A stretch of DNA of 64,000 bases, taken from the NCBI GenBank assembly GCA_002256005.1, contig NKIQ01000003.1, positions 1 through 64,000 of the forward strand, read 5' to 3'. The DNA is from Alphaproteobacteria bacterium PA4. Its GTDB lineage: Bacteria > Pseudomonadota > Alphaproteobacteria > Sphingomonadales > Sphingomonadaceae. Below the pieces are notes generated by a model. That model saw only the letters and a program-made list of their open reading frames with translations. It ran no database searches and was not told where the DNA came from. Every line of letters starts with the position of its first letter. The stretch's first letter is position 1. This document shows positions 52,955 to 56,463 of the stretch, piece after piece. The position numbers and the translations under genes are program-made.

Positions 52955-52980
52955 GTAACCGCCCGGTCCACCCCCGCGAA
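52955..52980 (+). promoter_or_regulatory. Predicted ECF sigma promoter of the DUF1223 operon
   Basis: GTAACC (52955-52960), exactly 16 bases, CGAA (52977-52980). The same motif and spacing precede the ECF sigma gene at 56309. It matches the consensus I recall for Caulobacter sigma-F. Predicted transcript start lies about 25 bases before ATG 53013. Confidence 0.75.
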
Positions 52981-53012
52981 CTCTCTGGCATCCCCGCCAC
53001 GAGAGGCACGCA

Positions 53013-53708
53013 ATGACCACGCTCCGCAACCTCGCCGCCGCATTTCTCGCCGCAGCGACCCTCGCCCCGGCCGCACAGGCCGCCGACGCCGCCCATCCGA
53101 TCGTCATCGAACTGTTCCAGTCGCAGGGCTGTTCGTCCTGCCCGCCGGCCAATGCCAATGTGAACGCGCTGGCCGCCCGCCCCGATGTCCTCGCCCTGTC
53201 GTTCGCCGTCACCTATTGGGATGGCCTTGGCTGGAAGGATGTCTTTGCCCAGCCGCAGTTCACCCAGCGGCAGTGGGATTATGCCCGCGCCTTTGGCAAT
53301 GATCAGGTGTGGACGCCGCAGGTTGTCATCAACGGCCGCGCCAACATCACCGGCACCAAGACCCAGCCGCTGCTCGACCTGGTCGCGAAAACCGATCGCG
53401 GCTCCGGCGGCCCGGCACTGGCGCTGGCCGGCAGCGATGTCACGATCACCGGCAGCGCCGCCAGGCCCGCCGATGTCTGGCTGGTGCGCTATGATCCGCG
53501 CAGCGTCGCCGTTTCCATCAAGGCCGGCGAGAATGGCGGTCGCACCCTGCCGCACCGCAATATCGTCCATGAACTGGTGAAGCTCGGCCGCTGGAGCGGC
53601 GGCAACGCCCGCTTCACCCTGCCGGCAGCGCGCACGCCAGGCCTTGCCACCGCTGCCTTTGTCCAGGCCGGCAATGGCGGCCCGATCCTCGCTGCCGTGC
53701 GCGGCTGA
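53013..53708 (+). CDS. DUF1223 secreted thioredoxin-like protein
   Basis: 231 residues. Signal peptide MTTLRNLAAAFLAAATLAPA, then IELFQSQGCSSCPPANANVN, the DUF1223 signature with a CSSC redox pair, YWDGLGWKDVFAQPQFTQRQ and VWTPQVVINGR (cis-Pro). Fold is thioredoxin-like; a periplasmic oxidoreductase role is inferred. Carries a sigma-F-type promoter and is followed 77 bases later by the DAM-repeat gene. Confidence 0.9.
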   Translation: MTTLRNLAAAFLAAATLAPAAQAADAAHPIVIELFQSQGCSSCPPANANVNALAARPDVLALSFAVTYWDGLGWKDVFAQPQFTQRQWDYARAFGNDQVWTPQVVINGRANITGTKTQPLLDLVAKTDRGSGGPALALAGSDVTITGSAARPADVWLVRYDPRSVAVSIKAGENGGRTLPHRNIVHELVKLGRWSGGNARFTLPAARTPGLATAAFVQAGNGGPILAAVRG

Positions 53709-53785
53709 TACCCGCCGCTACCCGCTTTCCCGGCCCGCCGTCGACCGGAATGCCCCCTTCAAAAGACGGCCCAAGGAGACCCGAC

Positions 53786-54037
53786 ATGAAGCTCAAGACC
53801 CTGACCCTGATCGCCGCCGCCGCCCTGCTCGCCGGTCCGCTGCAAGCCGCGCCCAAGTCCGATGCCATGGCCGCCGACGCCATGAAGGCCGATGCGATGG
53901 CCCCGGCCAAGCCGCACGACGCCATGGCCAAGCATGATGCCATGGCCGTTGACGCCATGGCCGCGCCCAAGGCCAAGGCCAAGGCCAAGCATGCCGATGC
54001 GATGGCCACCGACGCCATGGCCGCGCCGAAGAAGTAA
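53786..54037 (+). CDS. DAM-repeat (pentapeptide MXKDX-like) periplasmic protein
   Basis: 83 residues from ATG 53786, with AAGGAG at 53772-53777. Signal peptide MKLKTLTLIAAAALLAGPLQ, then eight DAM units spaced by 1-13 residues (AADAMKADAM, HDAMAKHDAM) and a KAKAKAKH stretch. Resembles the MXKDX repeat family. Rich in Met, Asp, His and Lys, which hints at metal binding; no proof. Probably co-transcribed with DUF1223. Confidence 0.82.
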   Translation: MKLKTLTLIAAAALLAGPLQAAPKSDAMAADAMKADAMAPAKPHDAMAKHDAMAVDAMAAPKAKAKAKHADAMATDAMAAPKK

Positions 54038-54096
54038 CCGCGCCGCCGCTGGCCAGGCCATCCCCCCTGTGCCCGCCAGCGGCTCCTGCGGCGACC

Positions 54097-54132
54097 ACGC
54101 CCGCCCCGATGTGATCGGGGCGGGCGTTTTTT
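54097..54132. terminator. Terminator between the two arms of the sigma module
   Basis: ACGCCCGCCCCGAT, loop GTG, ATCGGGGCGGGCGT, then a T-run. Stem 14 bp, perfect. It stops the DUF1223-DAM transcript; the reverse side lacks a T-run of its own. Confidence 0.92.
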
Positions 54133-54182
54133 GTGGGGTGGTGGGGAGAATGTGGCCCAGGGGGAAGGGCGGAATGGCGCTG

Positions 54183-55106
54183 CTAAATGCTGCGGCGATA
54201 CTGGGTCGGCGTCACGCCCATCGCCTTGCGGAAGCTGGTGGCGAACTGGTTGGGGCTGGCAAAGCCACAGCGGCTGGCGATGACGTGCACCGGCAGGTCG
54301 CTGCCGCGCAGCAGGCGCCGGGCGGCATCGAGGCGGGCGCGCGTCAACCAGGCATGTGGTGGCAGGCCGGTGGCATCGCGGAACGAGCGGCACAGGTGAT
54401 AGCGGCTTAGGCCGGCCACACCGGCGAGATCATCGAGCGTGACGGTCTCGCCTAGATTGTCGGTGATATAGGCCTTCAGCCGGGCAAGCGTGCGCGGCGC
54501 CAGCACGTTGCGAGCGCGCGGGCTGGCAGCGTCCAGAGTCGTCGCACGCAGCACCAGCCGGGTCAGCAGCGCCTCCAGCCAGGAATCGCGCGCCAGCCTT
54601 GCATCGGGGCTGCCGTCCAGCGCCGGGTCTAGCATGGCCTGGAGCAGCGCGCTGACCAGCGGGTCATGCCAGCCGAGTTCGGGCGTCAGGCTGATGGCAT
54701 CGGGCTCGCGATCGAAAACGTCGCGGATTGTCCGGTCCAGCCGGCGTGGAGTTACATAAAGATGGGCATATTCGACGGGCCCTTCCGTCTGCCACAAATA
54801 GCCGGCACCCGCCGGCACCAGGGTGACACTGTGCAGCGCCACATCGCTTTGCCGTACGGCACCGTCGCCGCGACGGGTGACGCGCTTGGCACCGCCCAGA
54901 TGCAGGGCGAGATAGTGATGATCGAGCGGCGGCTGCTGCATCACCGCACCGGTGCCGGCCCAGCGCCGCAACAGACCGCCATCGACGGCCTGGGTCGCGG
55001 GCGGCGTGGTGGTGATGCGCGCCGCCCATTGTTCCGGGGAGTGCAGGAGATCGGCCGAGGGGCCTTCGCTGGCGGTCATGAAGGGAGTGGGGCGCAACGC
55101 GATCAC
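54183..55106 (-). CDS. AraC-family regulator, coupled to the sigma/anti-sigma pair
   Basis: 307 residues from GTG 55106, which overlaps the nrsF stop (GTGA); an ATG at 55079 is the alternative. N-terminal cupin-like ligand domain (LHSVTLVPAGAGYLWQTEG). C-terminal double HTH: LDDLAGVAGLSRYHLCRSFR and VHVIASRCGFASPNQFATSF, ending in FRKAMGVTPTQYRRS. A third gene of this type behind sigma-NrsF is unusual and suggests a second layer of control. Confidence 0.9.
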   Translation of the reverse strand: MIALRPTPFMTASEGPSADLLHSPEQWAARITTTPPATQAVDGGLLRRWAGTGAVMQQPPLDHHYLALHLGGAKRVTRRGDGAVRQSDVALHSVTLVPAGAGYLWQTEGPVEYAHLYVTPRRLDRTIRDVFDREPDAISLTPELGWHDPLVSALLQAMLDPALDGSPDARLARDSWLEALLTRLVLRATTLDAASPRARNVLAPRTLARLKAYITDNLGETVTLDDLAGVAGLSRYHLCRSFRDATGLPPHAWLTRARLDAARRLLRGSDLPVHVIASRCGFASPNQFATSFRKAMGVTPTQYRRSI

Positions 55107-55771
55107 CAGCGCAACAACCGCGGCAGCAGCAGCCGGGCCATGCCGGCAATGCCCAGCACGGCGCCGCCATACCAGATGGTCACATAGAGCGGATCGTCAT
55201 GGTTGCAGTGAAAGGCAAAGACAAAGGCGCCGAGTCCGGCCGCGGCCAGGCCGGCAGCCAGCGCCGAGCGTTCCGGCCGGGTGCTGGCGCCATGCTTGAC
55301 GAAGCGGGCCAGCACGAGCAGCGGTGCCAGCGACAGCAGCAGCACATTGGCGAGGCAATCAAGACCATCGCGCCAATCGAGCCGGGCCAGCAGCGCCGCC
55401 GCGCCCGAAGCACCGGCATCGATCAGCCACCCGGAGGCGAGCGCCAGCGGCACCACCAGCGCCAGCCCGCGCCACAGCCAGGCAAGGCGTGGCGCGCGGG
55501 TGATGGCGGGGTCGAGCGACAGCAGCGCCGCAGCCATGGCGAGGCTGGCGATGCTGCCCATGGTCAGCGTCTTCCACCAGAACATCGGCGACTGCATCGC
55601 CTGTGGCATATCGGGCCGCAGACCGCGCAGCGCGGCATAGATCAGGATTTCGGCGAACACGAGGCCGGCGACCAGCGCCACTTCCCGCGTCCAGCGCCGC
55701 GGCTGCACCGGGTGCAGGTCGGCCACCAGCGCGTCGATCAACGGATCGGCGGGGTGAAGGTCAATCGGCAT
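55103..55771 (-). CDS. nrsF: NrsF-family (DUF1109) membrane anti-sigma factor
   Basis: 222 residues, six hydrophobic segments. Conserved marks are WWKTLTMGSI, two cysteines, Cys139 in WRDGLDCLANVL and Cys189 in FAFHCNHDDPLYVTIWYG. In Caulobacter two NrsF cysteines sense chromium or cadmium and release sigma-F, as I recall it. Overlaps the sigma gene end by 11 bases and AraC by 4. Expected to hold the sigma factor at the inner membrane until metal or thiol stress. Confidence 0.92.
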   Translation of the reverse strand: MPIDLHPADPLIDALVADLHPVQPRRWTREVALVAGLVFAEILIYAALRGLRPDMPQAMQSPMFWWKTLTMGSIASLAMAAALLSLDPAITRAPRLAWLWRGLALVVPLALASGWLIDAGASGAAALLARLDWRDGLDCLANVLLLSLAPLLVLARFVKHGASTRPERSALAAGLAAAGLGAFVFAFHCNHDDPLYVTIWYGGAVLGIAGMARLLLPRLLRW

Positions 55772-56309
55772 CGGGATGGCTTTCGATGATCTGGGCGAGG
55801 CGGCCGAGGCCGCGATGGATATTGACCTTGACCAGCGCCGGCGACTGCCCGGTGCGGGCTGCGGCTTCCTCGATCGACAGGCCGTCGAGCTTGACCAACC
55901 GGATGACTTCGGCCTGCGCCGGTTTCAGGTTGAGCAACAGCCCGGTCAGCGCAGCGGCGCTTGTGACGGCGGCTTCATGGTCGGGGGTCGACAGGGTTTC
56001 GGGCAGTTCGTCAGCGGCGTGCCGGCCGGCGGCGCGCAGGCGATCGACCCATTTATAGCGGGCAATGCCGGCCAGCCAGGGGCCGAAAGGGCGCGACGGA
56101 TCCCAGGTGTGGCGCTTGGCATGGATGGCGAGCAGCGTGTCCTGCACGGCATCCTCGACCGAAGACGGCGGCAAACGGCGACGGAAATAGCGCAGCAGCC
56201 AGGGGCGCAGCTCGGCGAGCAGGCGGCGATAGGGGGCGGCCTCGCCGGCCTGCGCCGCCGCCATCATCCGCCCCCAGCCGTGCGGATCGAGATCTGCCGC
56301 GTCATTCAT
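55761..56309 (-). CDS. ECF RNA polymerase sigma factor, NrsF-controlled type
   Basis: 182 residues from ATG 56309; the open frame to 56450 runs through the promoter and is rejected. Region 2: VEDAVQDTLLAIHAKRHTWD and FGPWLAGIARYKWVDRLR. Region 4: LKPAQAEVIRLVKLDGLSIE and EAAARTGQSPALVKVNIHRG. The paired downstream DUF1109 gene and the promoter motif identify it as a sigma-F-like factor, probably autoregulated. Confidence 0.92.
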   Translation of the reverse strand: MNDAADLDPHGWGRMMAAAQAGEAAPYRRLLAELRPWLLRYFRRRLPPSSVEDAVQDTLLAIHAKRHTWDPSRPFGPWLAGIARYKWVDRLRAAGRHAADELPETLSTPDHEAAVTSAAALTGLLLNLKPAQAEVIRLVKLDGLSIEEAAARTGQSPALVKVNIHRGLGRLAQIIESHPDAD

Positions 56310-56437
56310 CGTTGCTATTACGCTAACGATTGCAAGCGCACGCGCATAGACCGGCGCCGGGCCGGGATGACAGGCCGCCCTCGCCATCATTGCGAATTCG
56401 TGCCGGAGATTGCGCAGCAGCAGGTCATCCCTGCAGG

Positions 56438-56463
56438 TTCGGCGCTGCAACCCAAAAGGTTAC
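56438..56463 (-). promoter_or_regulatory. Predicted autoregulatory promoter of the sigma operon
   Basis: On the minus strand GTAACC (56463-56458), exactly 16 bases, CGAA (56441-56438), about 130 bases before the sigma ATG. Identical in both boxes and spacing to the site at 52955. Other GTAACC sites in the window (near 15168, 39290, 48098, 51140 and 54040) lack CGAA at this spacing. Confidence 0.75.

Follow-up and report, generated by a model that had tools for sequence, protein, structure and literature searches.

A sphingomonad sigma-F/NrsF module with DUF1223 and methionine-sulfoxide repair genes as predicted targets

Described ECF16 systems and the locus of strain PA4

Sigma factors of extracytoplasmic function (ECF) group 16 have been described in Caulobacter crescentus (sigma-F with NrsF, PMC3511200), Bradyrhizobium (EcfF with OsrA, PMC3420878), and Brucella melitensis (BcrS with AbcS, PMC8315932). 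NrsF, OsrA, and AbcS inhibit their sigma factors, and two cysteines are important in NrsF and OsrA (PMC3511200, PMC3420878, PMC8315932). The published promoter consensus of the group is tGTAACc-N16-CGAA (PMC3420878), and in Caulobacter the sigF promoter and the target promoters are highly similar to one another (PMC3511200). Here we describe a module of this known SigF-NrsF kind, with a new regulon arrangement, in a 64-kb window (the whole stretch of DNA analyzed, positions 1 to 64,000 of contig NKIQ01000003.1 of Alphaproteobacteria bacterium PA4, family Sphingomonadaceae). Two convergent units fill positions 52955-56463, sigma-nrsF-araC on the minus strand and, on the plus strand, a gene pair for a DUF1223 protein and a methionine-rich MxKDx-type peptide. 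The new point is that, judging by promoter sequence, DUF1223 is a conserved predicted target of sigma-F within the family.

The signals reported for these systems vary: chromate and cadmium, not peroxide, in Caulobacter (PMC3511200), peroxide and singlet oxygen in Bradyrhizobium (PMC3420878), and hypochlorous acid (HOCl) in Brucella (PMC8315932), while RpoE7 of Sinorhizobium does not respond to peroxide, cadmium, or chromate. Since they differ among species, we propose no single inducer for the window module. In Azospira suillum, the methionine-rich periplasmic peptide MrpX reportedly scavenges hypochlorite together with a methionine sulfoxide (MetSO) reductase, YedYZ (work ascribed to Melnyk 2015). 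That system differs from ours in gene set and lineage, and we liken the two by description, not by sequence.

With Caulobacter, the window shares the sigma-nrsF operon, a similar promoter, a small regulon with a YedY-type target gene, and an anti-sigma factor with two cysteines whose positions differ by 50 residues (131/181 in Caulobacter, 139/189 in the window; PMC3511200), a spacing also found in the anti-sigma factor of Brucella (PMC8315932). However, the other Caulobacter targets are DUF692/DUF2063/DUF2282/DoxX operons (PMC3511200), and the main text of that report mentions neither DUF1223 nor AraC. The Brucella system has the exact form GTAACC-N16-CGAA upstream of both bcrX and bcrS, an adjacent MxKDx peptide gene, and an MsrP-type reductase in the regulon. 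The peptide and MsrQP are direct targets of the ECF16 sigma factor, and both BcrX and MsrQP are HOCl induced and contribute to resistance (PMC8315932). There, a single operon encodes the peptide, MsrQ, and MsrP, whereas in the window genome the peptide is paired with DUF1223 and the MsrP-like gene lies elsewhere, with a b561-type cytochrome; the neighboring regulator is of the GntR type in Brucella and of the AraC type here (PMC8315932). DUF1223 is not mentioned in the main text of the Brucella report either. Bradyrhizobium EcfF-OsrA is likewise an ECF16 system, with a regulon of three MetSO reductases and a periplasmic thioredoxin, and its -10 element, (c,t)CG(t,a), covers the CGTA variant seen here; it differs in the thioredoxin, the membrane-anchored Bll1026 with a DsbD-like partner, and in a spacer of 14-15 (PMC3420878).

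DUF1223 and the sigma-F promoter

The exact motif occurs exactly twice in the window, once ahead of each unit, as the initial annotation had it. The copies end 32 nucleotides (nt) before the ATG of the DUF1223 gene (53013) and 128 nt before that of the sigma gene (56309). Shuffled windows should hold 0.01 copies each, and none of 100 shuffles held two. The motif itself is already published as the ECF16/sigma-F promoter, and what is new is its placement in this genome, labeled G000 (below, G-numbers are genomes, L-numbers loci, and C-numbers contigs). The initial annotation had suggested looking for the gene set in other sphingomonads, and the whole five-gene block recurs, in identical convergent layout and with both motifs, in the metagenome-assembled genome Sphingomonadales bacterium 336R (locus L097, genome G249), where sigma, NrsF, AraC, and DUF1223 are 77, 60, 65, and 76% identical to those of the window. 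In an alignment of the sequences preceding the two sigma genes, the standout conserved block was CTGTAACCTTTT...GCCGAACC. The flanking genes match too (by eye); L097 is therefore closely related to the window, and we treat it as a single observation.

A broader comparison comes from 249 genomes of the family, 63 of which have DUF1223. NrsF (weak matches counted, E ≤ 0.001) is present in 121 of the 249, that is, in 56 of the 63 genomes with DUF1223 versus 65 of the 186 without it (P = 2e-14, a value that ignores relatedness). The exact motif lies no more than 450 bp ahead of the profile start in 36 of 67 DUF1223 genes (compiled from 69 rows by dropping a short fragment of 41 bits in G090 and merging two pieces in G207); single-base shuffles predict 0.02, and six permuted control patterns gave no match upstream of the same 67 genes. 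Motif-bearing genes make up 35 of the 61 in genomes with NrsF and one of the six in genomes without it, and the sole exception (G159) is a fragmented assembly with a contig that ends inside a sigma gene (L192). The 36 sites also share a flanking bias beyond the pattern searched, with T or C before GTAACC in all of them and G before CGAA in 28. The pair adjoining the sigma operon, which the initial annotation took for a target, gains support both from its own promoter and from the family-wide association of the motif with DUF1223.

Genome-wide counts of so short a pattern are too weak to serve as evidence, and we rejected them in that role. The 2.997-Mb genome holds six exact matches against two for the reversed pattern. 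In this genome scan, which the initial annotation had proposed, four of the six precede correctly oriented genes (the two window sites, an MsrB gene, and an ArsM-like gene) and the other two do not. We excluded three matches as unsupported: one close to tuf (C9), one close to the end of a contig (C13), and one ahead of a small open reading frame (ORF) on C17; the last, a GTAACC-N16-CGTA at C17:57567-57592 (L274 1501-1526), stands about 56 nt ahead of a 111-codon ORF resembling a small membrane protein.

Several results weigh against the reading of DUF1223 and the repair genes as sigma-F targets. The exact motif is missing from 31 of the 67 DUF1223 genes, including those of the two same-genus genomes that possess DUF1223 (four sampled), and in these four genomes sigma is just ~50% identical to that of the window. 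With the CGTA form included, the motif is found 9 times versus 8 for the reversed pattern in G000 and 8 versus 8 in G249, and the exact form yields 5 versus 10 in G003, 3 versus 3 in G072, and 2 versus 5 in G028. The Caulobacter sigF operon is not strongly autoregulated despite a promoter of this kind (PMC3511200), and all promoter assignments made here are inferences from sequence. It is position and conservation, not raw motif counts, that make the regulon calls credible. Near-background counts are also what could suggest that the two window copies are chance matches, an explanation that we find hardly credible given two copies in a single 64-kb window, each ahead of the right gene, the 36 of 67 DUF1223 genes against 0.02 expected, and the conserved upstream island common to the window and L097. 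Outside the family, none of the 30 best-scoring DUF1223 genes (of 141 match rows) in other families of the class had the motif. The DUF1223-sigma-F link is thus strong inside the family, and the sample tested from other families showed no such link.

As for the sigma genes of the four same-genus genomes (L037-L040), they are preceded by GCAACC-N16-CGAA, with one mismatch, in three cases and by a site with two mismatches in the fourth. Their NrsF proteins are ~33% identical to that of the window, whose sigma/NrsF version is nearer to that of several other genera. The view of NrsF neighborhoods covered 60 genomes out of the 121 with NrsF. Of 16 sphingomonad loci hand-picked for an upstream motif, 13 (L045, L046, L050, L051, L053, L055, L060, L062, L064, L065, L070, L072, and L080) have a DoxX-like gene (by eye; confirmed as DoxX, PF07681, in L045) that precedes sigF-nrsF and is itself preceded by GTAACC-N16-CGAA. 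A DoxX gene is also among the Caulobacter sigma-F targets (PMC3511200).

Predicted methionine-sulfoxide repair regulon

The regulon had been predicted to lie next door to the sigma gene. The DUF1223-MxKDx pair does adjoin it, but at least three further predicted units are on other contigs (C22, C39, and C17). The search for them allowed CGTA at -10, a variation within that reported for EcfF targets (PMC3420878). On C22, an MsrB gene (TIGR00357, above cut-off) has the exact motif 69 nt before its ATG. On C39, a pair encoding a cytochrome b561-like and an MsrP-like protein has GTAACC-N16-CG(A/T)A 32 nt ahead, and on C17 the motif stands 9 nt ahead of genes for an MsrB with a Tat-like leader and then an MsrA with a lipoprotein-like leader (both by eye). 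G249 carries the motif at the same five units (sigma operon, DUF1223, MsrB, cytochrome b-MsrP-like, and exported MsrB-MsrA), which in the two genomes look like a methionine-sulfoxide repair regulon.

Among 29 MsrB genes, closer homologs from 13 genomes picked for kinship or a common gene set, GTAACC-N16-CG(A/T)A lies within 350 nt upstream of 11, with 0.012 expected and no match for four permuted controls. None of 30 other, top-scoring MsrB loci had the motif, which tells against this part of the regulon, and we rejected MsrB as a general sigma-F target. Two further points count the same way. The C39 protein scores 95.6 bits, below the NCBIfam MsrP equivalog cut-off of 207, so it is named MsrP-like only, and of the three PF00174 genes in G000 the one on C39 alone has the promoter. 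In other genomes, cytochrome b and MsrP-like genes lie downstream of DUF1223 in the same orientation (L075 in G003, L078 in G072, and L091 in G028), with a Met-rich peptide between DUF1223 and these genes in G003 and G028 (that of L075 matched no NCBIfam family), and both genes stand beside DUF1223 in 9 of 60 further DUF1223 loci. The window arrangement looks like a split version of this cluster.

The 61 residues of the window peptide after position 22 include 8 Met, 8 Asp, 10 Lys, 3 His, and no Cys. Its repeats are mostly of the DAM type and its N terminus is leader-like (by eye); the TIGR02953 score stays under the 41-bit cut-off (Table 1). A counterpart gene is present in L097. An MxKDx-like peptide follows DUF1223 in just 7 of the 67 loci (crude filter), a further point against the regulon reading. 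The peptide resembles the MxKDx peptides BcrX and MrpX, proposed sacrificial targets of hypochlorite. By promoter sequence only, it also has an ECF16-type promoter and a MetSO reductase in its predicted regulon.

The initial annotation had seen in the pair a plausible metal or thiol buffer. On that reading, metals that are released or taken up during stress would be bound by the CxxC protein and by the peptide rich in Met, Asp, and His. Chromate and cadmium do induce the Caulobacter sigma-F regulon, and H2O2, tBOOH, paraquat, and diamide raise two tested genes there no more than twofold (PMC3511200); the peptide has three His and eight Asp, and an ArsM-like methyltransferase gene in G000 (C1:18420-18445, L001 1501-1526) has the exact motif ~34 nt upstream, with a radical SAM gene on the opposite strand. 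Yet the His residues are not conserved (three in the window, one in L097), the remainder of the conserved regulon consists of MetSO reductases, and the related Brucella peptide operon is HOCl induced (PMC8315932). A search of 11 relatives, run without a positive control, gave no match to the ArsM-like gene at E ≤ 1e-50, and this gene is kept as a regulon candidate only. A buffer thus seems quite unlikely. The closest described relatives of the peptide are methionine peptides with a proposed sacrificial role, and the other predicted regulon members belong to methionine-sulfoxide repair. We therefore replace this reading by methionine-oxidation repair, in which metals may still act as inducers, as chromate and cadmium do in Caulobacter (PMC3511200).

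The sigma operon, its AraC gene, and a proposed mechanism

The features of the locus are collected in Table 1. The assignment of the minus-strand operon to the ECF sigma-F/NrsF kind, with a sigma-F type promoter ahead of it, is borne out by protein families and motif. The sigma factor has sigma-70 regions 2 and 4 only. NrsF reaches just 69.6 of 300 bits for the NCBIfam NrsF equivalog and is therefore a divergent member; Cys139 and Cys189, as predicted, are confirmed and are its sole cysteines. NrsF aligned in 55 of 63 sequences (window included), and a cysteine stands at the two positions in 54 and 55 of these, respectively. Between sigma and nrsF the overlap is 11 nt, whereas the one claimed for nrsF and araC (4 nt) holds only with the GTG start, ATG leaving a 23-nt gap. 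The terminator expected between the convergent transcripts was found as a 14-pair stem and, its T tail being on the plus side, serves the DUF1223/MxKDx transcript; the terminator scan named none for the minus strand at 54097-54127.

Table 1. Coordinates of the two convergent units in the window
Feature	Position	Strand	Evidence
Predicted sigma-F type promoter GTAACC-N16-CGAA of the DUF1223-MxKDx unit	52955..52980	+	Motif scan; kept at equivalent position in L097; family-wide test
DUF1223 protein, 231 amino acids (aa)	53013..53708	+	PF06764 3e-58; homology to PDB 2axo (2e-35); CSSC at 40-43
MxKDx-type methionine-rich peptide, 83 aa	53786..54037	+	TIGR02953 32.7 bits (cut-off 41); composition; counterpart in L097
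Intrinsic terminator of the DUF1223-MxKDx transcript	54097..54127	+	14-pair stem with T tail on + side
AraC-family regulator, third gene of sigma operon	54183..55106 (GTG 55106, or ATG 55079)	-	PF12833 3e-26; L097 counterpart 65% identical
NrsF-family membrane anti-sigma factor, Cys139 and Cys189	55103..55771	-	PF06532 8e-40
ECF sigma factor, sigma-F (ECF16) kind, 182 aa	55761..56309	-	PF04542 and PF08281; 77% identical in L097
Predicted sigma-F type promoter GTAACC-N16-CGAA of the sigma-nrsF-araC operon	56438..56463	-	Motif scan; upstream block common to L097

AraC was described as a third member of the operon and as a second sensor. The first holds for the window and L097; for the second, no thiol sensor is visible, the only cysteines (239 and 280) lying both in the DNA-binding part (PF12833). 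AraC homologs (E ≤ 1e-30) occur in 6 of the 249 family genomes, G000 included, and adjoin nrsF in G000 alone among these. A scan of one genome per species (84,980 species) returned L097 (65%) and next a 42% match without the module; such a scan can pick up only close relatives, and near kin of the window may be missing from it. The gene may equally well be an unrelated one merely attached behind nrsF: it adjoins nrsF in just two examined loci, and L097 is syntenic, so that both may stem from one event. Against this, order, strand, and tight junction are kept at 65% protein identity in L097, and in G200 (L084, 3565-5230) a gene that matches AraC in part (40% across 101 aa) and then the exact motif stand just upstream of sigma and NrsF on the same strand, so that an AraC-type gene accompanies the module there too, but in another order. 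The homologs in G134 and G140 (L227, L233, and L235) lie near GMC oxidoreductase-like, nitrilase-like, and molybdo-enzyme-like genes and, in L227 and L235, near genes for Met-rich exported peptides (all by eye); those of G134 are ~7 and 11 kb from NrsF. Work in Caulobacter inferred a second sigF regulator (PMC3511200), which a cotranscribed AraC would fit by analogy. We regard AraC as an addition specific to this clade that may further regulate the sigma operon.

Taken together, the module is probably a sigma-F/NrsF (ECF16) switch against oxidative damage to periplasmic methionines and thiols, with a regulon of at least five units. At rest, membrane NrsF would hold the sigma factor. Peroxide, a hypochlorite-like oxidant, or a metal that reacts with thiols, for instance chromate, would act on NrsF via Cys139 and Cys189 and free the sigma factor, by analogy with Caulobacter, Bradyrhizobium, and Brucella. 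Going by the conserved promoter sequence, the sigma factor would then transcribe its own operon and at least four GTAACC-N16-CGAA/CGTA units (DUF1223-MxKDx, cytochrome b-MsrP-like, exported MsrB-MsrA, and cytosolic MsrB). The MxKDx peptide may be oxidized as a decoy for other proteins, as proposed for BcrX and MrpX, and the MsrP-like enzyme with its cytochrome b, plus exported MsrA/MsrB, would reduce methionine sulfoxide back, as their enzyme families and the BcrX/MrpX systems suggest. In the least certain step, DUF1223 would most likely supply or shuttle thiol electrons to exported MsrA/MsrB or repair oxidized thiols.

DUF1223 proteins have a thioredoxin fold (PMC3091736). The N terminus of the window protein is signal-peptide-like (by eye), and GCSSCPP is kept in 60 of 66 DUF1223 loci. 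Thioredoxin-fold families include thiol oxidases, disulfide isomerases, and metallochaperones, and it is a real possibility, somewhat short of an even one, that DUF1223 is one of these, coregulated with the Msr enzymes but not serving them. The conserved GCSSCPP cannot separate reducing from oxidizing roles, and of 60 DUF1223 stretches (mostly ~4 kb) 10 have an MsrP-like neighbor and none an exported MsrA/MsrB-like one. However, the periplasmic thioredoxin of Bradyrhizobium is coregulated with a periplasmic Msr and is its proposed donor (PMC3420878), so a functional slot for a donor exists. We therefore propose DUF1223 as thiol donor or repair partner of exported MsrA/MsrB. A fuller combination, in which DUF1223 is a dedicated periplasmic MetSO-repair thioredoxin, donor to exported MsrB/MsrA or to the oxidized MxKDx decoy, recruited into the sigma-F regulon in sphingomonads, with AraC as a second regulator of the sigma operon of the kind inferred in Caulobacter, is tentative and, as a whole, rather unlikely.

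For DUF1223, a structure has been solved, and a search of the open-licence literature found no role, although earlier reports may exist elsewhere. Its predicted link to the sigma-F regulon bears on the electron supply to exported MsrA/MsrB, which was left speculative for Bradyrhizobium (PMC3420878). Tying the family to a methionine-oxidation stress regulon would give it a first likely role, and with it a function that can be tested directly and a set of candidate redox partners.

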